From Paracoccus sediminicola (lineage in GTDB: Bacteria > Pseudomonadota > Alphaproteobacteria > Rhodobacterales > Rhodobacteraceae): a DNA stretch of 64,000 nucleotides. Of this stretch, positions 49,157 through 64,000 are shown in pieces. Each line of letters opens with the position of its first letter. The first letter of the stretch is position 1. The notes beneath the pieces were generated by a model that saw only the letters and a list, made by a program, of their open reading frames with translations, was not told where the DNA came from and did no database searches. The translations under genes were made by a program, and so were the position numbers. The stretch is from positions 2,782,501-2,846,500 of the forward strand of contig NZ_CP115768.1 in the NCBI RefSeq assembly GCF_027912835.1, written 5' to 3'.

Positions 49157-49654
49157 CAGGCGACGTTATGGGAATGCAGCCTCGCGTCAAGCTGTGTCGC
49201 CATGCTCGCCCTGCCGGTGAGGGAAAAGCGAGCGAGGCGCGTCCGACGCCGCCGAGGGCCGGCTGGGGGAAGGCGATTGCGAAAAGCGTTGGTGACCCCG
49301 GCAGAAGATAAACCGCTCCAGCAAAAACAGACACTTAGACTGTCTAACCCCGAAACCTTGCCCCATTGAAAACATTGGGGAATTTCCCGGCTTGTCCAAC
49401 CGCAGAACCGAAAAAGAAAAACGCCGAGGCAGCGGCCACTGCACTCGGCGTCATTTCGTTGGAAAACGACAGTTCCTACGCTTGTCTGCATACCATGCCG
49501 TTGCTGCTCAAGGCAAGTTAGATGGCTTTCCTGCCGTTATGGTTGGGTCTGACATGTTGGGTGGGCCGTCGGAGAAGTTCTGCTCGTTCACCACGGCAAA
49601 AAGCTCGCTTGCGAAGAATTCGCTGCCCTATTGTTGTGGGGGTGGAGAAGTCCA
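49157..49654. other. Gene-poor junction between core and accessory island
   Basis: No convincing gene in about 500 bases. It holds a nested inverted repeat at 49329-49347 (TTAGAC-T-GTCTAA inside AGACA...TGTCT), a weak CCCCA/TGGGG hairpin at about 49361-49380, and a strong minus-strand terminator. Short frames on both strands lack ribosome sites and family features. Gene content changes here from metabolic to mobile and defence genes. Confidence 0.5.
49411..49451 (-). terminator. Orphan Rho-independent terminator, minus strand
   Basis: Perfect 8-bp stem ACGCCGAG (49421-49428)/CTCGGCGT (49444-49451). On the minus strand the stem is followed by TTTTCTTTTT. No minus-strand gene lies upstream of it within the 200 bases before the plus-strand gene at 49655. 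Confidence 0.75.
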
Positions 49655-50518
49655 ATGAGCTGGCGTATCGCAAATGAATGCGCCGAGCGCCGTTTTGGCA
49701 GTGCCGCGCGCAAGCAGATCATCATGTTCCTGGCCGACAAGGCCAGCGATGACGGCTCAGGCATTTGGTGCTCAAAAGGAACCATCCAGCGCCACACGGA
49801 ACTGGGGGAGACGACCGTGAAGCGGACCATCTCCGACTTCCTGAGCGAAGGCATCCTTGTTGAGACCGGGCGCCGTCCCTGCCGCAACGGCTATACCGTC
49901 GTTTACCGCATCATGATTGATCGCATTCGTACGCTTGAATCCATCGGTGAGCCCGAGCTCGACACGGGGTCCACCATGGACCCCGTCCAGCCTGGACCCG
50001 GTACGGGGTCCATAGTGGACGGGGTACGGGGTCCACAGCGGACCCCAAACCACCCTAAAACCATCCATAAACAACCTACGCGCACACGCGAGGCGGCGGA
50101 GGAGGTAGAGAACCCTGAAACCGAAAAGATCCTTGCAGCCTACCCGAAGGACAGGATCAGGAACCGACGGACGACCCGAAGCCTAATTTCAGCAGCGTTG
50201 AAGGAAAGCGCGGTCCCCGATGACCTGCTACAGGCGGTGAAGGCCTACGCGAAAGAGAGCGAGGGCTATACGCGTAGCAAGGTCTGTTTCTCGGACAACT
50301 GGTTCAAGATGCGCCGATGGGAGACGAGGCTCACGCAAATACAGGCTGACCGCGAGAAAGCAGTGGAGGCTGAAACCAAAGGGCGCGCCAATCTTGTCGG
50401 ATGGATCCGAGACCGCCACCCCCTGTGCCGCCATATCACCCAACGGCAAATCGATGGGCTCATTGCCTCGAAAATGGTGACGGCTGAGCAAGTACTTGCG
50501 GCGGGTCTGCATCCATGA
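49655..50518 (+). CDS. Helix-turn-helix protein, possible phage/plasmid replication initiator
   Basis: A 287-residue protein. The N-terminal ~90 residues form a HTH_36-like winged helix: CAERRFGSAARKQIIMFLAD, WCSKGTIQRHTELGETTVKR and TISDFLSEGILVETG. A low-complexity Gly/Pro/Asp linker follows (about 105-135), then a Lys/Arg/Glu-rich C-terminal domain. The N-terminal type occurs in phage and plasmid replication proteins. The DNA of the linker carries iteron-like repeats. SD GGAGAAG precedes the ATG. Function is inferred from architecture only. Confidence 0.7.
   Translation: MSWRIANECAERRFGSAARKQIIMFLADKASDDGSGIWCSKGTIQRHTELGETTVKRTISDFLSEGILVETGRRPCRNGYTVVYRIMIDRIRTLESIGEPELDTGSTMDPVQPGPGTGSIVDGVRGPQRTPNHPKTIHKQPTRTREAAEEVENPETEKILAAYPKDRIRNRRTTRSLISAALKESAVPDDLLQAVKAYAKESEGYTRSKVCFSDNWFKMRRWETRLTQIQADREKAVEAETKGRANLVGWIRDRHPLCRHITQRQIDGLIASKMVTAEQVLAAGLHP
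49964..50035. repeat. Iteron-like repeats inside the HTH gene
   Basis: Three direct copies of ACGGGGTCCA start at 49964, 50003 and 50026, two of them extended to GTACGGGGTCCA. Inverted copies TGGACCCCGT (49977-49986) and TGGACCCGGT (49993-50002) interleave; the first pair forms a perfect 10-bp inverted repeat with a 3-base spacer. Confidence 0.7.
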
Positions 50519-50565
50519 GCTTGCTTACCAGACTCGAAAATCAGGCCCGAACTATACCTGGCACT

Positions 50566-50583
50566 TATGATCAATGGATCATA
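50566..50583. promoter_or_regulatory. hip operator O1
   Basis: TATGATC-AATG-GATCATA, a perfect 7-bp inverted repeat in an 18-bp site upstream of hipB. Confidence 0.7.
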
Positions 50584-50592
50584 GAATTGATT

Positions 50593-50610
50593 TATGGCTT
50601 CGAAGCCATA
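50593..50610. promoter_or_regulatory. hip operator O2
   Basis: TATGGCTTCGAAGCCATA, a perfect 18-bp palindrome, 27 bp after the start of O1. A -35-like TTGACA follows at 50611-50616. Confidence 0.7.
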
Positions 50611-50619
50611 TTGACAAAT

Positions 50620-50637
50620 TATGATCGATGGGCCATT
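50620..50637. promoter_or_regulatory. hip operator O3 (imperfect)
   Basis: TATGATCGATGGGCCATT, same 18-bp size and again 27 bp after the previous site; outer arms conserved, one outer base changed. A weaker fourth TATGG...CCATG site (50644-50661) overlaps the hipB start. Confidence 0.55.
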
Positions 50638-50658
50638 TGGCGTTATGGGAGAACCGCC

Positions 50659-50910
50659 ATGAAGCATCTTGTCCGCACGCCAAAAAACATCGGCCATGCC
50701 ATTCGCGAGGCCCGAAAGGCCAAAAGCCTGACCCAGACGGACCTCGCCGCGATGAGCGGTGTTTGGCAAGAGACCATCTCCAAGATCGAGAACGGCAGCG
50801 GCGGTACCAAGCTGGAAACGATCTTCGAGTTGCTCGCGGCTCTTGATCTTGAACTCACGGTCACCGAGCGCAGCAAGGGTGCCTCTGACGGGTTCGAGGA
50901 TATTTTCTGA
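50659..50910 (+). CDS. hipB: HipB-type antitoxin (XRE/Cro helix-turn-helix)
   Basis: An 83-residue DNA-binding antitoxin. The HTH is IREARKAKSLTQTDLAAMSG followed by VWQETISKIENG, then TKLETIFELLAALDLELTV. The ATG at 50659 with GGGAG upstream is chosen; the frame runs back to 50515 but that part lies over the operator array. One base separates it from hipA. It should bind the upstream operators and neutralise HipA. Confidence 0.88.
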   Translation: MKHLVRTPKNIGHAIREARKAKSLTQTDLAAMSGVWQETISKIENGSGGTKLETIFELLAALDLELTVTERSKGASDGFEDIF

Positions 50911-50911
50911 C

Positions 50912-52213
50912 ATGGGCCGCAAGCGCAGCTACACACCGCTGAACGTGTTCCTGAACGCGCGGCTTGTCGGCCAGTTGGTGCGGGAGTCCTCAGGCGGCAT
51001 CAGTTTCGCCTATGCCCGAGAATGGCTCGACTGGGAGCACCGGATGCCTGTTTCCCTGTCCTTGCCGCTGCAGGAAAACCGCACCGTCGGCGCGCCGGTG
51101 ATGGCGGTATTCGACAATCTGTTGCCCGACAGTGACCTGATCCGCCGTCGGGTCGCGGAGCGCGTTGGCGCTGAAGGCGTGGATGCCTTCAGCCTGCTGT
51201 CACAGATTGGGCGCGATTGTATCGGCGCGTTGCAGTTTCTACCCGATGGGCAATCCCCACAGCCAATGAACGAACTTAGCGGTGAGACGGTGGACGACGC
51301 GCAGATCGAAGCCATTCTGAACGATCTCGACATCGCGCCGCTTGGCATTCGGCGTGAGAATGATGTCCGCATTTCTGTCGCAGGCGCTCAGGAAAAAACG
51401 GCCCTTCTGCGCAAGGACGGTCAGTGGATCGAACCAACCGGCACGACGCCCACCACGCATATCATCAAGCCGCAAATCGGCCGGCTGCCCAATGGCATGG
51501 ATCTGTCCGACAGCGTGGAAAACGAATTCCTGTGCCTGAAGTTGATGGAGGCCTTCGGCCTACGGGTCGCCAAGGCCGAAATGGCGCGGTTCGGCGAGAA
51601 GAAAGCCTTGGTCGTTGAGCGGTTCGATCGGCGATGGACGTCTGATGGCCGGTTGATCCGCCTGCCGCAGGAAGATTGCTGCCAAGCATTGTCCGTGGTG
51701 CCCACGCAGAAGTATCAGAACGAGGGCGGCCCAAGGATCGCGGACATCATGAGCCTGCTGCTCGGGAGTGATGACGCCAACACAGACCGGAGGGACTTTT
51801 TCAAAGCGAATGTCCTGTTCTGGCTTCTGGGCGCGACGGATGGGCACGGCAAGAACTTCAGCATCAGCCTCCTGCCAGGCGGCCGCTTCCGCTTGACGCC
51901 GCTGTACGACATCCTGACCGTTCAGCCGACCGTCGACGCTCGGCAGATCGAGCGAAAGCAGTTCCGGCTCGCCATGAGTTTCGGCAACTCAAATCACTAC
52001 AAGGTGGCGGATATCGTGGGGCGCCACCTTACGGAAACCGGCGTGCATTCCGGATTGTCCCGCGCGGCCGTGCAGAGCTTATTCGACGAATTGCAGGATA
52101 CCGCGCTCGAGCGCGTTGATGCCACCCTCAACCGACTGCCAGGCGATTTCCCTGGGGCGCTGATGTCTTCAATCGAGGCGGCCGTGAAGGCCCGACTGTG
52201 CCTGTTGGGTTGA
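50912..52213 (+). CDS. hipA: HipA-family toxin, Ser/Thr kinase
   Basis: A 433-residue HipA kinase. The N-terminal couple domain holds NARLVGQLVRESSGGISFAY and PVSLSLPLQ. The P-loop-like motif ISVAGAQEKTALL matches the autophosphorylation loop. The catalytic stretch is GATDGHGKNFSI (Asp and Asn) and the metal Asp is in LTPLYDIL. In E. coli HipA phosphorylates GltX; its target here is not known. Complete and apparently intact, so an active toxin-antitoxin pair. Confidence 0.94.
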   Translation: MGRKRSYTPLNVFLNARLVGQLVRESSGGISFAYAREWLDWEHRMPVSLSLPLQENRTVGAPVMAVFDNLLPDSDLIRRRVAERVGAEGVDAFSLLSQIGRDCIGALQFLPDGQSPQPMNELSGETVDDAQIEAILNDLDIAPLGIRRENDVRISVAGAQEKTALLRKDGQWIEPTGTTPTTHIIKPQIGRLPNGMDLSDSVENEFLCLKLMEAFGLRVAKAEMARFGEKKALVVERFDRRWTSDGRLIRLPQEDCCQALSVVPTQKYQNEGGPRIADIMSLLLGSDDANTDRRDFFKANVLFWLLGATDGHGKNFSISLLPGGRFRLTPLYDILTVQPTVDARQIERKQFRLAMSFGNSNHYKVADIVGRHLTETGVHSGLSRAAVQSLFDELQDTALERVDATLNRLPGDFPGALMSSIEAAVKARLCLLG

Positions 52214-52256: not shown

Positions 52257-55200
52257 CTAGGCCACTTGATGAATTTGCACCCCCTCGCCGCAGACATCTC
52301 GCGCAATATCGACAACGTGCTGGTGATGAGTCAGGTAGACTGCCTGCCCACGCCGCCCGATCCGCTCCATGACGCGGCAGGCTGAACGCGTGCGCTCCTC
52401 GTCGAAAGTCTCGAAAATGTCATCGCAAAAGAAGGGAAGCGCTGCCCCCTGATCTGCCAATTGCTCATAAGCTGCTGCCCTTAGGGCAAGATATAGCTGG
52501 AACCGGGTGCCCTTTGACATGTCTTGGGCCTGCTTCGCCATTCCTGCAGAATCAATGGCAAGAAGGGTTTCTGAGTTTCCATCCACTTGGGTTTGGAGCG
52601 TTGAATAGGCGCCGTTGGTTAGTTCCGCGAAAGCGGTTTCGGTAGCTTGCATCATCATGCTGCGATGAACGTCGCGATATCGGCGGATCGCTGTCTCTGC
52701 GAGGCGGTGGCCGAGGCTCAGCTCGAGATGCCGTAGGGCATTCTCCTGCATTTCGATCTCAATGGTCGCCTTGCGCTCGACGAGAAGGGCAACATCAGCG
52801 TCACCGCCGATGGATCGGAGCTGTTGCTCGGCCGCGCTGCGGGTCTCAATTGCCGCCTTGTAGTGCGTATCAATGCCCTCAAGATCGGCAATGACCTCAT
52901 CCAGCTGGGCCTGCAATCCGGCTTGTGTTGCACCAGTGAGGAAAGAACGCGCTTCCTCGGTATTCTTGAGATCAAGAAGTGTGGCGACCTTTCGCTGTTG
53001 TTCCAGTCGTTTTGACCGGCTGTCGATAACGTCCGAAGCCCTATTGACAGCCTGCCGCAGAGCGGTGAGAGATCCCGTGTCAACGTCGTCGGGAAAGGCA
53101 CGCGCCAGCTCAGCCACCATGCGGTTGATATCGCCGAGGGTTTTTTGCGCCGCCGCCATTGACGCTTCATGCGCATTGATGCGCTTTGCTAAATCCTCGG
53201 CCGTTTTTTCTGCCTCAGCAGCGCTCTGAACCAGCGCCTTCATCTCGGCATAATCAGCCATTGGCTCGCCAAGGGTCATGGTGCCAAGGCGCGCGATCAA
53301 CGCCTCGACGCCTTTGCCAAATTGGGCCTGATCCTCTTCCATGGAAGAGATTTGCCGCTCCAGCAGCCCCCTTTGCGTGTCGAGCTCGCGCAAATCCTGG
53401 AGGGGTTTAAGCGCGTTTTCGAGGGCATTCACGTCGATGATGTCCGGCAGCACATGTTTGATCAGCGCGAGCCAATCGCCGCGGGCAGTCGTGGCTACGT
53501 CTTCAAGCGCTGAGAGTTTATCGGTGCGCCTTTGGTGGTCCTGCGTAAGATCGTTGAGCCGCGATGAAGCGCTTCGTAGCCGTTCTTGATGGCTACGCTG
53601 CGCTGTCAGGCTCGCTTTTGCGGCGCCGACAAGCTCTTCGAATTCTGGTGTATCCCGATTGAAATGCGCCGCAAGCGCTTGGGTTAACCGATCCGCTTTC
53701 TGAAATGTATCCTGGTGCTCAGCTTCTAGTCTGCGCAGCGTGTCTTGGGCTTGCCTGGCGAGATCGAGTTTGCGCAGCCAAGAGCAGAAGGTGTCGGGGG
53801 TAATCGAGGTTTTGATGCCCGCATCGCGCGCCGCACCGGCCATTCGTTCCAGTATCTTGTCGCGCGCTCGTGTGAGTATGGCGACCTTCTGTGCCGCTGT
53901 TTCCAGCTTTGCCTGATCGGATGCAAGATCCTGCTCTTGTTGGCGCAGTGTCCCGAGATCGGCGGCCTTTGAGAGCCGCAGGTCTGTCACTGTGTCAACG
54001 CGCGCCATGGCACCCTCGAACGCGTCTGCAGTTGCAGCACTCAGGCTTGCCCGATGTGCCTGCCAAAACGCGTCGCGTTCTGTGCGCAGGTGGCGGGCCT
54101 CGGCATCGTCAACCAACCCATCACTGTCTTTTATGACGGCAATCCGCGCGGCGCGTTCCTCCACGGTGGCCTCAATCGACTTGACGTCTTCTTCTGCAGC
54201 ACGGATTTTTTGAACGGTAATCTGCAGCTCGCTATGCTGTGCTTCCGCCTCCTCAGCGGTCAAGGGGCTGACCGGCAGAGCTTCAAAGCTCTGTCCCTTG
54301 AGCGTGAGCGCATCGAATGCCACATGTCGTGCGCCACGCGCGGTTTTCAACGCCTCTGACGCGGCTGCATAGCGCGCAGAAAGCGTATCAATGTCGAAGC
54401 GCTCGAAGAGATCAGCCAAGTCAGCAGAAGCGGATGTGCCGTCATTCAGCTCGGCGAGCTGCGTCTTCGCGAACCGGACTTTGTCATTGAGGGTCGCGAC
54501 CTCATCTTGCTCATGCCTGACAGCGGCATCAGCATCACGCATCCGATCCCGCGCTTGTTCAAGCTCTGACAAGGTGGCGGCCGGCAGGACAAGTGCCTTT
54601 GGGTCAATATCCTCGGTGATGCCCATGTCGCGAACGGCGATACCCATATCAACCAGAACCTGATCGCGGTTCTTTCGCCGACGGTCTAAGTCCAGTTGGG
54701 CGGCCGCATATTTGCTTCTCAGGGGATCGAGGTCTTCCAGCGCCTGCGCGAGTGCCACGTGCTCCGGATGATGCTTGATCGCCCCCAGTTCCGCACGAAG
54801 ACTTTCCAGCTCTTCTTTGAACTTGGTGATGTCGCCGGTGGCCTTAGTCTGGTTGGCGAGCATCTGAACCAGATCCTCTGGGTCAACATTCAGCTGCGTC
54901 GGCCAGTTTTCAAAATCCGCCAGCTTGTCATCAAGCTCATCAATCTCATGCAGGATCGGCAGCGCCTGAAGTTTGGCCTCTAATTGCGCCTTTAACGCAA
55001 ACAACTCCTTACGCCGCCCGGAAACCTCGGTTTCCTCCTGTAATGCCACGCCGAGCGCCTTCTTCAAGCTGCGATATTGCGCGGCGGAGATGTCAAGATC
55101 ACGGATTTGTCCTTCGACATCGGCCAGTTCTTTTTTCAAAGCCGCGAGCCGGGTTGTGCTGGCCCGTTTGCGATAGAGGGTATCGGCCTGCTCTCGCACG

Positions 55201-55703
55201 GTGTCGAGAACTGCGGAAAGCTCGCTGATCCCTGCCGCGGCTGAAAACAGCAGGCGCCCGATATCGCCTTTGGCTTTCGTAATCTCCTCGCCGCCTTTTT
55301 CGATGGTCAAATCATCAAGGCACAGCAGGTTCCGGTAATCGTCTTCAGACAGCCCGCCAAGATGGGCCTGCAAGGCGCTGTTTGGCAATTCCCGGCCCTC
55401 GGCATCGCGCAGAGAGGGATCGCGAGTCGGCATCCGCGTAAAGCTTGTCTCAGCGCCATCAATATCCAAGAGCCCCGTCACGCGAAGGTTCTTGCGTTGA
55501 TGCAAGAAATCGTAGGGCTCGCGGTGCGGGAACCCATAGAGCAACCGAAGATAGCCTTCCATGGTCGTGGTTTTGCCAGCCTCGTTCAGCCCATAAATGA
55601 CATGGAAATCCGGCGTGTTGGCGTCACGGCGCGCTCCAAAATCGAATGACTTGCCGGAAAACCGGCCGAAAAACTCCAGATCGAGCCGACGCAGACGCAT
55701 CAT
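52257..55703 (-). CDS. YhaN/SbcC-like coiled-coil ATPase
   Basis: A 1148-residue SMC-like AAA protein. The N-terminal half-ATPase has Walker A GLNEAGKTT (38-46) preceded by LDLEFFGRFSGKSFDF. The long middle is charged coiled coil with a probable hinge. The C-terminal half has signature SKGTRFQLYLALRAA and Walker B LPFFCDDIFETFDEERT, ending in a VYLTHHQH D/H-loop. This is the YhaN layout: larger than many, and partner of the nuclease that overlaps it by ATGA. Likely drives DNA end or structure processing by the nuclease. Confidence 0.9.
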   Translation of the reverse strand: MMRLRRLDLEFFGRFSGKSFDFGARRDANTPDFHVIYGLNEAGKTTTMEGYLRLLYGFPHREPYDFLHQRKNLRVTGLLDIDGAETSFTRMPTRDPSLRDAEGRELPNSALQAHLGGLSEDDYRNLLCLDDLTIEKGGEEITKAKGDIGRLLFSAAAGISELSAVLDTVREQADTLYRKRASTTRLAALKKELADVEGQIRDLDISAAQYRSLKKALGVALQEETEVSGRRKELFALKAQLEAKLQALPILHEIDELDDKLADFENWPTQLNVDPEDLVQMLANQTKATGDITKFKEELESLRAELGAIKHHPEHVALAQALEDLDPLRSKYAAAQLDLDRRRKNRDQVLVDMGIAVRDMGITEDIDPKALVLPAATLSELEQARDRMRDADAAVRHEQDEVATLNDKVRFAKTQLAELNDGTSASADLADLFERFDIDTLSARYAAASEALKTARGARHVAFDALTLKGQSFEALPVSPLTAEEAEAQHSELQITVQKIRAAEEDVKSIEATVEERAARIAVIKDSDGLVDDAEARHLRTERDAFWQAHRASLSAATADAFEGAMARVDTVTDLRLSKAADLGTLRQQEQDLASDQAKLETAAQKVAILTRARDKILERMAGAARDAGIKTSITPDTFCSWLRKLDLARQAQDTLRRLEAEHQDTFQKADRLTQALAAHFNRDTPEFEELVGAAKASLTAQRSHQERLRSASSRLNDLTQDHQRRTDKLSALEDVATTARGDWLALIKHVLPDIIDVNALENALKPLQDLRELDTQRGLLERQISSMEEDQAQFGKGVEALIARLGTMTLGEPMADYAEMKALVQSAAEAEKTAEDLAKRINAHEASMAAAQKTLGDINRMVAELARAFPDDVDTGSLTALRQAVNRASDVIDSRSKRLEQQRKVATLLDLKNTEEARSFLTGATQAGLQAQLDEVIADLEGIDTHYKAAIETRSAAEQQLRSIGGDADVALLVERKATIEIEMQENALRHLELSLGHRLAETAIRRYRDVHRSMMMQATETAFAELTNGAYSTLQTQVDGNSETLLAIDSAGMAKQAQDMSKGTRFQLYLALRAAAYEQLADQGAALPFFCDDIFETFDEERTRSACRVMERIGRRGQAVYLTHHQHVVDIARDVCGEGVQIHQVA

Positions 55704-56938
55704 TCAGAAGCTCCCTTCATCGAGGCGAAGAGATGCTCTGATCCGGCTTTCGCCAGTTCGTCTGTAAGAGTTGCAAGCGCTGCAGGATCCGACAGGAGCG
55801 CGGTCCGGCATGCAGAGGGTAACTGCGATAGAACCTCCTCCACTTCTGCCTGCGCCTGGGCCACAAACCCATCCTCAGCCGCTATCTTGGCCATGAGCTG
55901 ACCGAGCTCCTCTGTCGCGCTTTTGTCAGATGCCACTCGGGGCGCCTCAAGCGCAAAGCTGAGTTTCTCAACCCAAAGCCGGCCCGTTTCTTCCGCGATT
56001 TGCGTGACAGTTTCAAACCAGACGTCCCGGTCTCGGAGCACATGCCAGTGCCTGGTTGTGTGCCCAGCCAGCGAAAGCCGTAAGATTGTGCGCTCCGCAC
56101 GGCCAAGCTCCGAGGTCATTTCATGAAGATCGGCCCGGATTTTCTGACGGATATCATCATCGCTTTCAGCGCCAGAGAGATCAACGGCATGGCTTAGGAA
56201 TAAGACAACCGAGGTTGGGATTTCCGTTACCGTGATCTCTTCCTCATCAATGCTCAGAAGCGTGGCGGATTTGCGCCCTGCTTCACCGATGTCACGCCCC
56301 TGTGGGATACCGGGCATCACGACCCAGGGCGCCTCAGAATGCACCTGCCGTTTGTGCACATGGCCGAGCGCCCAATAGTCAAAACCCATGGCTGCAAGCT
56401 CAGCCACCGAACAGGGCGCGTAATTGTCATGCCCGACGGCGCCCCCAAGAGAGGTATGCAAAATCGCAATATTGACCGCACCGGAAACGGGCGCGGCGAA
56501 TTTGTTGAGAAGACTGTCTGGAGCGTGCTTGCCGCTGAAGCTCACACCGTGGATCCAGATATCGGTATCGGCCAACTGGACTTTGCCGCCACGACCGTCA
56601 AACACATGGACGTTATCGGGCAGCGTGACTTCGCCTGTAATCGGGTTTTCTGCATCATGGTTGCCCTTGATGTAGAAGACAGGGATGCCCGCCACCTGAA
56701 GCCGCTCAAGTTGCGCTGTCAGAAAGGCCGCCGTCTTGGCGCTGCGCTGCGCGCCATCATATAGGTCGCCAGAGATCAAAAGTGCCGCCACGTCCTCCGA
56801 GAGGGCGGTGTCGATAATCCTAACGAAAGCCGAGCGTGTGGCAGATTGTATATTTGCACGTAGTTGCTCATCACGAAGCGCCAAAGAGGTCAGCGGCGAG
56901 TCGAGGTGAATATCGGCAGTGTGTAAGATCTTGATCAA
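55700..56938 (-). CDS. YhaO/SbcD-like DNA exonuclease (metallophosphoesterase)
   Basis: A 412-residue calcineurin-like nuclease. Metal-binding motifs in order: ILHTADIHLDSPLTS, LLISGDLYDGAQRS, YIKGNHDAENP, and YWALGHVHKRQVHSEAPW. The C-terminal third is the YhaO extension. Overlaps the YhaN-like ATPase gene, forming an SbcCD-like pair. Lies 49 bases after the res gene on the same strand. Confidence 0.92.
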   Translation of the reverse strand: MIKILHTADIHLDSPLTSLALRDEQLRANIQSATRSAFVRIIDTALSEDVAALLISGDLYDGAQRSAKTAAFLTAQLERLQVAGIPVFYIKGNHDAENPITGEVTLPDNVHVFDGRGGKVQLADTDIWIHGVSFSGKHAPDSLLNKFAAPVSGAVNIAILHTSLGGAVGHDNYAPCSVAELAAMGFDYWALGHVHKRQVHSEAPWVVMPGIPQGRDIGEAGRKSATLLSIDEEEITVTEIPTSVVLFLSHAVDLSGAESDDDIRQKIRADLHEMTSELGRAERTILRLSLAGHTTRHWHVLRDRDVWFETVTQIAEETGRLWVEKLSFALEAPRVASDKSATEELGQLMAKIAAEDGFVAQAQAEVEEVLSQLPSACRTALLSDPAALATLTDELAKAGSEHLFASMKGASE

Positions 56939-56987
56939 TCTCGCATCTCCGGGTTGAAACGTACTTTCTCAACACTGAACCGCAAAG

Positions 56988-59900
56988 TTATTGGGTCATT
57001 TCTTGAACAAGCTTCGAGACATATGTGTCCCGCTGATCGTCCATAAATAACACGTGCATATCTTCCAATTCGTGGATCGTCTTGCCCCAGTTCAGCTTGC
57101 CGAAGCGCGTTGGCGTGACAATAAAGCTGTTCAATGTGACGTTTTCAGTGGCGAGCCTTGCCTGAATGTCTTTGATGACCTGATAAAACTCGATCTTCTT
57201 GTGGCCGGGACCTTCATGTTGCAGGCCGTGGGGCTCGACGAAAGCCAAGTGCTGTCTGCCGTCCTTCACGAGCCATAGAAGGAAGTCAGGATAGAAATTT
57301 CCCGCCTCAAAGAAGCCCACCCCGCGCCCACGGCTCTCATTGCGAAGCAAGAATAGTTCAATTCCTTCTGACGCCAGCCGCGCTTGATCCTTTTCGATAA
57401 AGAGGCGCAGATCATCCAGGAACTGGAATTCACTCTCATTCAATGAAACCGGCGCAATCTGTATTTTGCTTCCCTTGGTCGCATGAAGCACCGGCTCGTA
57501 GAGATGCGCACCAAACAGGCAGCCTTTCAAGTCGCCAGCGCGTAACACCCCGGCTTTTCGAGCCGATATCTCGCCGGTGAGGTTCTGGATGTCGTTAATG
57601 AGCGCGGCTTCGCTGGCATCGACGATTAGCTGGTATTCCTCCGCTTCAGGCAGGCTTCCGTCACGGGCTTCGATCTCACGGAGTTCAAGACGTGGCTCGA
57701 TAAAGGCTGCCTTGCAGTAGTTGTAGTATTCTTCCGATAATTTCTGCAACAGCTCCGCCGCCATCTCCTGCCAGAGCGCGACGTTTCCAAAATCCGAGAA
57801 CTCCATCTTACCCGAAGGCACGACGACCTTGTACCAGGTCCGGTCAGTGAGCAGCGTTCTGATCATGGACTTCGTAATGTTGAGATTGTGCCAGGTGCGC
57901 TCACGCTTGAATTTCTCAAGACGGAAGAAAAGGTCATCGTAGTCTAGGAAGTTCAGGTGGCCAGCCTCGAAAACGGTCTCCTCCTTGGTGCCCAGCTTGC
58001 TGCCCTTCTTGGACTCAAGAGACTGGATGCGGGGATACCAATCTATCGCGACGCCCTTGTGGCGTATCTTTTCTGGGATCAGCGTCAGGGCCGGCACTGC
58101 GCCGTCCCTCTTGAAATCGTACTCGCGACCGTCACCGCGCTTCTTTCGGGGGCGCAGCACCTTGAGGCGTTGCCCGAAGTCGTATGTGACCGTCAGCGGA
58201 ACTGTGAAGACCTGCTTCTGATCGTTGCGAGGCAGCTCTTCCTCTTCGAGGAACTTTCGGAAACGCTCCATGAAATCGGCTTCGATCCCGAAGACATTCA
58301 GTGTCTCGACGTACTGGATGAGCTCCGGTTGATGGGTGGGGGTGGCGAAGCCGCTGCGCTGGAGCGACCAGTCATACCCCTTTAGACGGACGCCGCGCCC
58401 GAAAAGCTGGATAATCTGCGCGCCTTCGCTCTTGCCGACATGCATGAGACCAAGGGTGCTGACGCGCCAACAATCCCAGCCCTCGACAAAACGCTTGGAA
58501 CCGATGAGCAGATTGACCGGGGAGCTGGAGAGGTTGATCTGCCCGAACATCGTCTCGGCAAACTCGGATTCCAGGACCGCGACGTTGTCGAACCCCTGCT
58601 CAGCGATATGGGTCGCCAAGCCGGATGCATCGCCGACGTTGATGAGCCCGAAAGGCCTTTCGGCCTGACCGACACGCAGCATGATCTCGTTCTCGTCGCC
58701 CTTGATCCGGGCAATCGACAACTCGCCACCGGCCCGATTCTGAAAGAGCTTTTCGAGGATGTCTCGGAACAGGTCGCCGGACTTCCAGCCCTCCCTAAGC
58801 ATGAGCTGCTGCAGATAGACGAAACCGCCGGCGAAAATGTCGCCGCCGTTCTCATCGAGGAGACCGGTCTCCTGAGCGTTACCGGTGAGGATCCGCTCGA
58901 TTTCGGCGGCCGATGTACCCTCGCTCTTCAGGAACTTCGCGATGAAGGCGAGGATCTTGCCTACGTCAGAAACCGTGGCCTTCTCAGCCTTGGATCCGGT
59001 GGCCTTGGTCACGCTGGAACCGACGAAAACCCAGAGCGGCTTCTCGATGTTGTAAGTCGCATAGAGCGTCTGCTTGTCCTCGTAGAGCTTCAGCTGCTGA
59101 TAGAAGCTCAGAAGACACGCCGTCAGGTATGAGAATTCAAGCTGAGAGAAGGTCCTCGGAAGGTTGAAGATGCGGTAGTCCTTGCCGTAGCCGTCCTCGT
59201 AAAAGTACCGGTACGAGTAGTCGAACAGGATCGTCTTCGCGTAGGATGCCTCGATTTCGGGACGCTTTGCGGCAGTGACAGCCTCCTTCAGCGTCGCCGA
59301 ATATTCGAAAACGAAACCCTTCTCCGACAGGCGGGCGCGGCTTCGGAACCAGCCGCGCTCTTCCTGGCTTCCCAACCCGCGATGAGCTTCGTCGACAAGC
59401 AGCAGGTTTTGGTCGCCCAGATTGCGCGTCGCGATGACGTTGGGCCCGTCGGTGTCACCGAGCTTTGTGACCTCGGTGTAGTCCACCTGGCGCAACCCGT
59501 TCTTGCCGGAGGACAGCAGGTCGCCGCTGTCCGTCAGCAGGCGCGACGCGACGATATTGCTGCCCTTCATCTCGCGCGCGTGCTGCAGGGAAAGCTGCTC
59601 GTTCGGAGTGATCAGCACCGTCCGCGTAAGGTCGTGCTTGAGTGGCGACTTCGAAGCGTAGTGCCGGAATTGCAGGAAGTTGACGTGCATCAGCAGCGTC
59701 TTCCCCGAGCCGGTGGCGTTCTGCAGGCAGAGCTTGTTCAGATCGTCGAGCTCGTAGGGCGTGATCCCCGGCTCGTAGCCCGCATCGGTCCAGTATTTGT
59801 CGAATTCATCGACATAGGCGTTCAGCGAGTCCAGCAGCACCGCGCGGTCGGCGAAGAACCGGTCGAGATAGATCTCGGCAAACAGCAGCGAGAGCCACTG

Positions 59901-60242
59901 GTAGTACTTCCAGACGATCGGCCGGTCGCGCTTCTCGTTGATCGCGAGCGTGTGGCTGACGATGTTGTGCTCGTAGCGCAGCAGGTCTGCCCGCGTGATC
60001 TGGGCGCCCGCCTGCAGGTGAACGTCCAGCGCCTTGTAGAAATGGTGCAGGTTCTCGGACGTCATGCCTTCGGGCGCGTCCTTCACCGTCTTGGCCAGCG
60101 GCTGCACCGGCCGCAGGGTGCGCTTGCCGTCCTTGTGGTCCTTCAGTGGATCGAAGCCGAACAGGCTGACGATCCACTGGTTCAGCACCAGCTTGTGGCC
60201 GAAGGGGAGCGGCTTGATCTTGGATTTGGACTTTCTCGCCAT
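56988..60242 (-). CDS. Type III restriction-like Res subunit (DEAH helicase with C-terminal nuclease)
   Basis: A 1084-residue ATP-dependent restriction enzyme subunit. SF2 helicase motifs: Walker [13 protein letters not shown] near residue 175, DEAH in [12 protein letters not shown] near 283, SAT in [10 protein letters not shown], and motif [15 protein letters not shown] near 614. The C-terminal nuclease region has FYPDFLLWL followed by LAFVEPHGL near 994-1015, a PD-(D/E)xK layout where the usual ExK is ExH. Starts 3 bases after the mod stop. Restricts DNA lacking the partner's methylation. Confidence 0.9.
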
Positions 60243-60245
60243 CGG

Positions 60246-63200
60246 TCAGCCCTCCACGTCCCACATCGCCTGGTGGAAGGCTTCCTCGATGAGGCGCACC
60301 TTCCAGGTCTCCTCGTCCTTGCGGAGGTTGAACAGGTTGTTGGAGCCGTTCACGTACATCACGTCGAACTCGGTGTCCTGCGCTGAGAGGCGGTACTTCC
60401 GGAACCACTCGTCCAGCATCAGGTTGTCCTGCTCGAGATCGCCGGTGAGCTTCCGCCAGACCACCAACGCCCTTTCGCGATCGTTGTGATCGCCGGGGGT
60501 GCGCAGGGTGTAGCCCTCGACCTTACGGAAGCGCCAGGCGCCGTCATCCGTCTCCTTCAGCGCGCCGTCGAGCATCAGCCGGGTGTTCGTGTCCCCCGGC
60601 AGCTCGGGATCGACCTCGCGCTTAAAGGCGGCGTCATAGCCGCGCCAACGGTCCAGATGCTCGACATGCAGGCCGATCAGCCAATTGAACGTCTCGACCA
60701 GGTCCACGGACTTCTCGACATACTCGTCCGTGCCGGGCTTCTTGATTTTCAGCTTGTAGGCGGTCGGATCGTCGAACCATTCGATGTTCAGGAGCGACGG
60801 GCTGCCCTTGGTCTCGAAATCGAGCCAGTAGCGAAGCATGTAGTCGCGTGCGAAGTCGCCTTTGGCCCCCTTGAAGTCGGTCCCGGGGAGGAGCGTAAGG
60901 TTGTTCAAGGCATCTTCGTAACTTTCGAGCCGAACATATTTGAACAGAGCGGACAAGCCGTCGTTCGAAAGCGGTTTCCCGTCCCGCCACTGTGACGCGT
61001 AGATTGCCTTCTGCATTCTCGGTCGCGTAACCGTATCAAAATATTCGCCCATCTCAACCAGACAGAACTTGCGGGAGCCGTGATCAGCTCTGTTCAGCGA
61101 TATCACGGCATGCCCAGTGCTTGCCGAGCCGCCGAAACAATCAAGGATCGTCGAGTCTTTTTCTGCCGCGTGCGTTATGAAACGAGAAACAAAATCAGCA
61201 TGCTTCGGCGCAAGAAAAATACCAGACTGACCAAACATCGCAGAGGTTTGCTTTTCCCCGTCCGAATAATCTACAAAAATACTCTTTCCGACGTTTGTTT
61301 CGACTTCATGGAGCATTCTCTTGATTTGGGGAACCTTGGCTTCGGTGTCGCCCCATGCAATACGCCCGTCCTCGTCCAACGTCTTAAGTGTTGTTCGATT
61401 TGTGTCATCCTCCGCTCGGTCATACGGAAACTTCCAGCCACTCTTGGGCATTGTGACCGGCTTTCCTGTTATTGGATGATTGGCGGAATAGAATCGATAG
61501 TTAGGGCTCTTGGGATCACGTGTACTTGCGGCTTGTTTGGTCGCTGGTAGTGCGAGGTCAGACTCCCTGAAGACCCAGATCTGCGCTTGAAGCTCTCTAG
61601 CAACAGACTCGTCAACGATCTTCCCATCAGCATCGCGATATTCTGCATTCTTATAGTTAAACAGTCCCTTCCACGGGTCGTCCTTCTGAAGGTCCTCCCA
61701 GTCAAGACCTTGCGCTTCAATTTCTTCGCGATAAGCGATTTTGTGATCGTTGTATAATTTCTTGATTGCCTCTTCAATTTCCGAGATCGGCGGGTAATCT
61801 GCGTTCAGAGCTGCTATAAGCTCCATCACTTCCAGATAACCCGGCTTGGGTTCTCTGAACATGTTCCGGTCTTTCTCAGCGGTTGGCTTGTCCTTCGCGT
61901 AAACCAAAACGTATTCGTGGTTGGTCGAATAGTTTGGAACTTGGCTATTATTGGTGTTCATCGACCAGATCAGCTCTTCAATCCGGTTCTCCGGACCGAA
62001 GACCGCATCCATTGCATGCTCAAGTACCGTTCTCTCGGCCTTGTCGATACTCACAAAAATCGCGCCATTCTCAGGCAACAACGGCTTCATCGCATGAAGT
62101 CTGTCGTGCATCAGTGTTGCCCAAGACGAATGCTTATAGCTGTTCTTGTATGGAATGGAACTGCTGTCGGTGTTGTATGGCGGATCGATATAGATACACT
62201 TGACGCCGCTCTTAAGTTTCTCTTTTAGAACCCTCAGAGCCTGAAAATTATCAGAGTGCAGAAGCTGCCCGATTTGTTCGGCGTCGATATCTTGAATTTC
62301 TGAAACTACACGATCTCTGAAATCGGCCTCAAAAAGAGCGGTATCCAGAAGAAGCTTTTCGTTCTCTTGCAGGAATTCAACTGTTAGGGGCACCGAGTAA
62401 TTGTCGAGCTGATCGATGGCGAAAAGCTGAACCCACTGTTCACGCTGCACGTCGTTGGCCGCAATCTCCGGATAGAATTCCTCCGCGATACGGTCGAGCG
62501 TGATGCAGTAATGCGTATCGACAACGAACTTTTTCTTCAGCCACAGCCGCTTCTGAAAGTCCTCAAGCTGGGCGAGGAAGTCAATCAGGTGCCGCGCGAT
62601 GCGGCGCAACACCTTGACCTTGGCGAGGTAGGCTTCCACCCGCGGCACATCGCCGGACTCGATGTCGTCCAGCCGCATGACCTCGTTCTTGATGTAGAAG
62701 TCCAGCTCGCGCCGCAGGAACCCGCCCAGATCCTTGTGGATGAAGTAATCCATACTGTTCCGGCCGGTGTAGTGGGTGAGATATTTCTCCAGCAGCGTCC
62801 GGTCCTTCTCGGCCTCGGTCGGCGCCGGTGTCATCAGGGCGGTCACATAGTCGTCCCCGCCCTCCAGCTTATGCAGCAGTTCTTTCACCTTCTTGGCCGC
62901 ATCGACCACGCGCTTCTTTCGCCATGTCCCGTCCTGGCCCGTCTTCTCGGGATCCGGGCGATACTGGAACTGGATCACCAGCTCCGGCTCGCCGGTGTCG
63001 CCCACCTCGATCTTCACCGGTTCCGGCTCGTGGATGATGAAGTAGCGTTCGGTCTGTTCGGACGCCTTGACGTTGTTGTGCTCGCCTTCGGACGCCGAGA
63101 CGATCCGGCAGTGGACCTTGAGCGGCTTCTGCTCTAACAGCGCGCCGTGCTTGTCCTTGAACTCCTTCGCCTGCGTCGGATCGAAGGTGAAGTTGGTCAG

Positions 63201-63719
63201 GTACTCGGACGTCTTGATGTAGTACTGGTCACGGTTGGCCCAGTGCAGATAGACCTCGCGCCCGTCATAGGGGACGGCATAGGGGGCGGCCTTGCCGTCC
63301 GTCTCGCGCGCGAAGTAGCGGCGGCTCATGAAGTCGCCGTTGTCGTAATAGCGCTCGAAGAAGCGGTAGAGGTGATCGTAGACGTCGCCTTCGTTGCTGC
63401 CGCTGTCCTTGGCCGCATCCCAGGCCGCCTTGGCTTCCTTCACTTTCGGAGCGGCATCCGGATCGGGTGCGCCGAATTCCTCGGCCTGCTTGCGCGCGGC
63501 CTCATAGGCGGATTTCGCCTGCTCGACACGGGCGCCGTCCGCCTCGCCGAAAGCATCTCGGATGATGCCCAGCAAATCTTCCTCGAGAAACTTCGTCACC
63601 TGGCCGGCCTTCGCATGCATGATGCGATAGAAGCCAAAGTCCAGGTCGGGCTGGTCGAGCTGGAACAGCTCCTTCAGCAGGCTGATCAAGCGTTCTCGTT
63701 GTTTCTCGACGTTCGGCAT
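60246..63719 (-). CDS. Type III-like adenine-specific DNA methyltransferase (Mod)
   Basis: A 1157-residue beta-class N6-adenine methyltransferase. Catalytic motif IV is [17 protein letters not shown] near residue 513, and the SAM motif I is [14 protein letters not shown] near 865, giving the beta order. About 500 residues precede the catalytic core, twice the size of EcoP15I-like Mod. The middle of the gene is lower in GC than the ends. The ATG at 63719 has AGGAG upstream; a GTG at 63752 that overlaps the previous stop (GTGA) is the alternative. Confidence 0.9.
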
Positions 63720-63748
63720 ATAGCGGGTTTCTCCTGCGTTCTGTTGGC

Positions 63749-64000
63749 TCACACGACCGTCCAGCGGATGGCGAAGAGCTCTTGCTTGCTGATATCCTGT
63801 TGGAGGCGGGCTTCCAGGTCCGAGATCATCTGATCGCGCTCGTCGATGATCTCGTCCTCCACCTCGAAGATGCGCTGGCGCAACCGGCGCTTGGATTTTT
63901 CCAGATCCTGGATCTGCTTCTGGATCCGGTGCTGCTCGTCGGGGGATTCGGCCGTACGCGCTTCGCGCTTGAGCTCGAGGATCCGCGCCTTCGCGTCCTT
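63749..64000 (-). CDS. C-terminal fragment of coiled-coil protein, first visible gene of the defence operon
   Basis: Only the last 83 residues are in the window. They are strongly charged and helical (ILELKREARTAESPDEQHRI, FEVEDEIIDERDQMI) and end with ELFAIRWTVV. The stop overlaps a possible GTG start of mod. This tail resembles the C-termini of SNF2-type helicases that accompany large restriction systems, but that is recall without a search. Confidence 0.55.
   Translation of the reverse strand, partial: KDAKARILELKREARTAESPDEQHRIQKQIQDLEKSKRRLRQRIFEVEDEIIDERDQMISDLEARLQQDISKQELFAIRWTVV

Follow-up and report, generated by a model that had tools for sequence, protein, structure and literature searches.

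Cleavage by type III restriction enzymes needs two inverted sites and ATP. Among the described systems, Murray et al. (2021) reported type III enzymes that form N4-methylcytosine (m4C), and two of these, Eco86II and BspHIV, bear an extra helicase-like gene 5' of mod (PMC8259958). According to the consulted sections of that report, more than 500 genomes have such a gene next to type III genes; it is dispensable for methylation and is not represented in an active Eco86II preparation, in which peptides of Mod and Res only were found (PMC8259958). Here, we describe an operon on the minus strand of a 64,000-nucleotide stretch of the Paracoccus sediminicola chromosome (the window; positions 2,782,501-2,846,500 of contig NZ_CP115768.1), which has this helicase-Mod-Res layout and encodes, behind res, the putative nuclease YhaO and ATPase YhaN. 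The layout is a published one (PMC8259958). The explanation we favor, at about even confidence, is that a known three-gene type III operon under a WYL regulator carries an independent YhaO-YhaN cargo behind res on a shared transcript. A literature search (preprints outside its scope) found, in the records as retrieved, no description of Mod-Res with YhaO-YhaN or SbcD-SbcC, and none of the listed papers naming both yhaO and yhaN concerns phage defense, as judged by title and abstract start.

Organization of the operon and identity of the YhaO-YhaN pair

The minus strand carries four complete consecutive open reading frames (ORFs): mod (60246-63752), encoding a type III DNA methyltransferase of 1168 aa; res (56988-60242), encoding a type III helicase-nuclease of 1084 aa; yhaO (55700-56938), encoding a Mre11/SbcD-like nuclease of 412 aa from a TTG start; and yhaN (52257-55703), encoding a Rad50/SbcC-like ATPase of 1148 aa. 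They are preceded by the gene for a 949-aa SNF2/DrmD-like helicase, of which the C-terminal end lies in the window (63749-64000) and the greater part beyond it (63749-66598, with coordinates past 64000 continuing the window numbering; L002:4249-7098). The first gene, wholly outside the window, encodes a 318-aa WYL regulator (66595-67551; L002:7095-8051) and overlaps the helicase start by 4 bases. Spacing is tight throughout: helicase and mod share a 4-base GTGA overlap (63749-63752), mod and res are 3 bases apart, res and yhaO 49 bases, and yhaO and yhaN share a 4-base ATGA overlap. The initial annotation, made from the window alone, had proposed this gene order, the tight spacings, and the type III and SbcCD-like assignments; ORF coordinates, measured distances, and Pfam and PADLOC matches bear it out on each point, and extending the sequence past 64000, as it advised, identifies its coiled-coil-ended upstream gene as the DrmD-like helicase. 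Such strong profile matches over long frames are not due to chance, and the gene set and its spacing are confirmed. A terminator/promoter scan listed no terminator-like site in the 49-base gap between res and yhaO, a result of little weight as the scan gave 13 sites versus 12.8 in shuffled sequence, and no promoter-like sites.

YhaO contains the Pfam Metallophos domain and matches the Mre11/SbcD equivalog models, at scores below their cut-offs; its matches to Mre11 structures have E values down to 2.9e-10. Residues D9/H11, D58, N93, H161, and H193/H195 of YhaO align with D8/H10, D49, N84, H173, and H206/H208 of the Mre11 chain, positions that we take to bind metal. YhaN matches Pfam AAA_27 at 201 bits. 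The pair is thus predicted to be of the Mre11-Rad50/SbcCD type, with a metallophosphoesterase that has the Mre11 metal-site residues adjoining a Rad50/SMC-like ATPase. No second YhaO was detected in this genome at E <= 0.001. Third-position GC is 0.61-0.63 in yhaO and yhaN versus 0.71-0.77 in the helicase gene, mod, and res.

The pair is absent from related Res loci

To place the operon among its relatives, we used a set of 79 Res loci, with each species represented by a single genome, from the best 80 of 106 confirmed; at least 1.5 kb follows res in 56 of them and at least 5 kb in 46, with less than 5 kb in the other 33. Of the 58 loci that extend 3.5 kb or more upstream of res, 56 contain Mod (the exceptions being L088 and L095); the helicase was found in 38 of the 45 that extend 3.5 kb or more upstream of mod. 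Since Mod and the helicase are frequent across these loci and WYL is rare, we regard helicase-Mod-Res as the recurring core and the regulator as variable. The three core proteins occur together in seven of eight plasmid loci (Hymenobacter, Blastomonas, Aeromonas, Escherichia coli, Priestia, Conchiformibius, and Athalassotoga), with a different order in Conchiformibius; a haloarchaeal plasmid locus has Mod-Res without the helicase, and Klebsiella plasmids contain matches to Mod and Res. Two E. coli loci (L007, L197) have the same layout as the window, with the helicase 47-49% and Mod and Res 34-39% identical.

YhaO and YhaN were found in none of the 79 Res loci by tblastn (E <= 1e-8). Profiles built from 12 sequences of each protein likewise revealed no pair in these loci; they did detect SbcD-type proteins in L058 and L063. 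Five loci in which Res is 95-96% identical to that of the window (L019, L020, L021, L028, and L035) contain 10 kb after res and lack the pair, while L026 (Res 97%) ends within res and so is uninformative on downstream genes. A family-level sample of 394 genomes, with roughly one genome for each genus, yielded YhaN (E <= 1e-100) in 39 genomes and Res in 5. The two genomes that have both are this one and G590; in G590, Res and YhaN are about 51 kb apart and YhaN is 44% identical. In a class-level sample of 385 genomes, 7 encode Res (E <= 1e-50) and 23 encode YhaN (E <= 1e-20); both are present in this genome and in G348, where they are 1.8 Mb apart and the YhaN match is partial. Res and YhaN are therefore adjacent only in this genome across both samples. 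YhaN (E <= 1e-30) is also found in 15 of 101 genomes of the genus, the best match outside this genome being 44% identical. Five pattern matches to YhaN in viral contigs included no relative, and three Res loci in viral contigs, two of which reach only 1.1 and 3.2 kb past res, contained no YhaO, YhaN, or queried cargo. A comparison by eye of the 54 close YhaN clusters with 120 listed Res clusters of 7148 gave no shared longest contig, a weak test with one contig per cluster. The initial annotation had presented YhaO-YhaN as a conserved member of the system, had advised a search for co-occurrence of Mod-Res-YhaO-YhaN, and had stated that adjacency in this genome only would refute the idea; that is the distribution found in the data searched, and we do not retain the claim.

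The edges of DNA homology point in the same direction. In blastn comparisons of the window and its continuation with 15 near relatives (14 of them distinct, since L165 and L028 are one locus), homology stops at 57006-57034 in every case, short of the last base of res by 18-46 bases. Conversely, homology to the YhaO-YhaN pairs of two other genomes begins at 56938 and extends to 52270 (G893) and 52269 (G444), covering just the two genes. As judged from these edges, two modules meet within approximately 80 bases at the end of res (56939-57018).

A separate likeness at the end of res was seen between L061 (Acinetobacter amyesii) and the E. coli plasmids NZ_CP018955 and NZ_CP100928, whose DNA is alike (89%) only in the last 84 bases of the gene, so there may have been exchange at the res 3' end. 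In the E. coli chromosomal loci L198 and L199, the same helicase family (44-47% identical to that of the window) precedes smaller methylase and helicase genes, the intervening genes being Abi and AIPR, or an AAA ATPase and an S8 peptidase.

Other genes take the place behind res in relatives

For most cargo types, the genes behind res in the relatives were assigned by Pfam on a single representative (L020, L021, L025, L027, L030, L039, L058, and L063); the remaining cases were assigned by BLASTP to these. An McrB-like protein is encoded behind res in L019, L020, and L035, and in part in L022; McrC accompanies it in L020 and L035, while the ORF chosen in L019 is an opposite-strand frame where McrC would lie. 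In L021, a HEPN_Swt1-SNF2 protein and a Sacsin-domain protein are found, and in L027 a 2406-aa Sacsin-domain protein and an SNF2 protein. SIR2-HerA follows res in L039, L042 (after other ORFs), L063, L073, and L078 (SIR2 24% identical). The remaining genes include one for a 950-aa protein that matches SMC_N weakly, at a score below the cut-off (L030), two ORFs of 982 and 338 aa (L028), and SbcD-SbcC, which is located after an AAA_13-type protein in L058 and after SIR2-HerA in L063. Because Res is 85%, SbcD 81%, and SbcC only 47% identical between the latter two loci, we count them as one recruitment, and one that appears to be long-lasting in that lineage. Their SbcD-SbcC is distinct from YhaO-YhaN: YhaO is 22-24% identical and YhaN has no match. 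This one distant lineage, represented by two loci, lends limited support to the usefulness of an end-processing nuclease beside Res.

Insertions elsewhere in the operon were also observed. A pair encoding an AAA_21 ATPase and a DUF4276 protein (HEC-01 in PADLOC) lies between mod and res in L025, L040, L053, L063, L068, L078, L093, and L097, and between the helicase gene and mod in L091.

Close relatives of YhaO-YhaN

The clade that includes the YhaN of the window comprises 54 listed clusters with identities of 55-97%, after which identity drops to 48%; the nearest listed clusters are P0001 (97%) and P0002 (77%). Close relatives of the pair occur among defense genes in all three contexts read, which represent two genera. 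In G893 (YhaN 66%, YhaO 79% identical), one side of the pair is occupied by McrB-McrC, an MkoA-like helicase-nuclease, a WYL protein, a 222-aa protein, and a DEAD-UvrD helicase. In G444 (YhaN 63%, YhaO 76%), relatives of the MkoA-like, WYL, and 222-aa genes are nearby, together with a DEAD-box helicase, and in G394 a truncated YhaN is found beside the same set. More distant pairs, 44-45% identical, adjoin household genes in all three annotated plasmids opened.

Two further features of these contexts were recorded. In G893 (L191/L192), 14 kb from the pair, a WYL protein 85% identical to that of the window heads a different gene set, consisting of a DruE-like MrfA-type helicase, a DpdE/DrmD-like helicase, a DrmMI-like methylase, and a CBS-domain protein. 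The conserved protein of about 222 aa recurs by defense genes (L158:11495-12166, L160:6706-7374, L190:12627-13295, and L021:20095-20766, the last recognized by eye only); the two copies scanned (L021, L190) had no Pfam or PADLOC match.

Sequence features of the helicase, Mod, and Res

The helicase is of the SNF2 type, and its best PADLOC model is DrmD (701 bits); an Hma identity is rejected on the much lower score of the HmaA model (171 bits). Mod matches Pfam N6_N4_Mtase and PADLOC MTase_III (650 bits), and its DPPY motif IV precedes the FGG motif I, the order of the beta class. Its best solved relative is EcoP15I Mod (E 1.4e-31), so that class, motifs, and homology all indicate a type III Mod. 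The middle of mod (60868-62412) has no DNA match in 9 of the 15 near relatives despite matching flanks (for example, to 62412 and from 60867), matches throughout in L035 and L024, and has a GC content of 0.49 versus 0.60-0.62 alongside; this exchanged cassette is probably the target recognition domain.

Res matches Pfam DEAD and ResIII and PADLOC REase_III (560 bits). It has the Walker A, DExH, SAT, and RGVR motifs of a superfamily 2 helicase and lies 3 bases from mod, as befits a type III Res, and the helicase-like ATPase gene 5' of mod gives the operon the layout of the three-gene subgroup. In the nuclease motif, PD...EPH (residues 984-1006), the PD and E are kept and the lysine position is a histidine. 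To assess this substitution, we aligned 82 rows (the window, 76 of the 79 loci, and L165-L169, with loci having a Res frame below 900 aa excluded), of which four are gapped, leaving 78, with L165 repeating L028. The histidine of PD...(E/D)PH is found in 74 of the 78, including the window; lysine is found in three distant loci (L166-L168) and valine in one, a doubtful partial frame. A search among solved structures gave no sequence match to Res at E <= 0.01. Cleavage by this Res is probable from its family membership.

The surroundings of the operon suggest an integrated mobile element. On the yhaN side, the window contains helix-turn-helix (HTH) and HipA-like genes (49631-52213); beyond the WYL gene (L002:8161-19359), the genes encode a ParA-type ATPase, an ArdC-like protein, a relaxase, and a type IV secretion system (T4SS) coupling protein.

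Interpretation and alternatives

The gene set, the recurrence of helicase-Mod-Res, the module junction, and the variety of genes behind res are directly established, and YhaO-YhaN looks like a swappable add-on because relatives carry other defense genes at its place. Enzymes of the Mre11-Rad50 type attack DNA ends and hairpins. By analogy, Mod would mark self DNA, Mod-Res would act on unmarked DNA using ATP, and YhaO-YhaN, read from the same transcript as res, could attack ends or hairpins of invading DNA independently of Res. Several points weigh against this proposal. WYL was matched in just 5 of the 79 loci, the near relatives L019, L020, L021, L028, and L035; the terminator-free 49-base gap suggests one transcript but does not by itself establish it; the defense-island context of the close YhaO-YhaN clade comes from three contexts; cutting by Res is not to be assumed, because histidine replaces the nuclease lysine; and the independence of YhaO-YhaN from Res is a proposal only. 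A wider version, which we put forward tentatively and consider rather doubtful, is that the place behind res in three-gene type III operons takes second-line effectors (McrB(C), SIR2-HerA, and HEPN-helicase with a Sacsin-domain protein) and that it has acquired pairs of the Mre11-Rad50 type on at least two occasions, YhaO-YhaN here and SbcD-SbcC in L058/L063. Restriction would then be followed by the action of a dedicated end-degrading machine encoded on the same transcript.

It is possible, though not likely, that the two modules act jointly despite their recent pairing, with Res or Mod-Res breaking unmodified DNA and YhaO-YhaN as a partner degrading the ends. The placement of the pair on the same strand, 49 bases after res, would fit such coupling, as would SbcD-SbcC, another Mre11-Rad50-type pair, behind res in L058 and L063, which keeps the idea of a nuclease behind Res alive; however, those two loci are probably one event, and YhaO-YhaN is missing from all 79 Res loci, including those with nearly the same Res. 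Moreover, Eco86II cuts in a preparation in which, by the sections consulted, only Mod and Res peptides were found (PMC8259958), and Res of that group therefore needs no nuclease-pair partner. An explanation we think unlikely is that a general DNA-repair pair reached its position after res fortuitously and plays no part in defense. The absence of Res beside YhaN in 38 of the 39 YhaN-bearing family genomes agrees with this, as do the household neighbors of the 44-45% identical pairs on plasmids; yet the pair of the window belongs to the closer clade, whose contexts read are all defense islands, and in relatives the place behind res takes defense genes. As for a fixed new system of five or six genes, as in the initial annotation, the tight operon of this genome is in its favor, but the lack of a second instance of the set in the 79 Res loci or the 394 and 385 genomes makes it very improbable. 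A fixed five-gene Mod-Res-YhaO-YhaN system is refuted in the data searched, as the set does not recur in independent genomes.

The interpretation of a three-gene operon with an independent cargo bears on the fate of DNA after type III enzyme action and on the role of the extra helicase of the three-gene group. Near-identical Mod-Res cores with differing downstream genes (McrBC, Sacsin-domain proteins, and YhaO-YhaN; further off, SIR2-HerA and SbcD-SbcC) form a natural comparison set, in which one can ask whether a cargo supplements restriction, serves as its back-up, or depends on it. The YhaO-YhaN clade found among defense genes is likewise a candidate for a role in phage defense.

Comparison with known systems

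Eco86II and BspHIV are like the operon of the window in having a gene for a helicase-like ATPase 5' of mod and res, DPPY and FGG in Mod, and Walker A GSGKT and DExH in Res (PMC8259958). Accordingly, the view in the initial annotation that classical type III systems consist of mod and res alone no longer holds, as this subgroup has a helicase gene 5' of mod. The described systems differ in that the six Res proteins of that report have a canonical PD-(D/E)XK motif in place of EPH, and in that its consulted sections describe no nuclease pair (PMC8259958). Both enzymes methylate to m4C, while Mod of the window may form m4C or m6A. The Eco86II genes were not found in the approximately 99 kb of E. 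coli NCTC86 examined, so the likeness to Eco86II is one of layout only.

EcoP15I and EcoP1 share the mod-res order, and Mod of the window matches EcoP15I Mod, although it has 1168 aa to the 644 aa of the latter; the operon adds a helicase, and its Res, as noted, lacks a match to solved structures. The resemblance to DISARM is confined to the helicase, which best fits the PADLOC DrmD model: PADLOC found no DrmA, DrmB, or DrmC among the operon genes scanned, DrmMI is likewise lacking, and we reject a DISARM identity of the operon. Defense genes embedded within other systems (PMC12255303), and clusters of type III and type IV restriction genes among BrxR/WYL-linked defense genes (PMC9122601), similarly place one module within or beside another; the consulted parts of these two reports name no Mre11-Rad50-type cargo. 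With SbcCD, other YhaO-YhaN pairs, and Mre11-Rad50, the pair of the window has in common adjacent nuclease and ATPase genes and the metal-site residues, but it belongs to a distinct clade and is set behind a type III operon.

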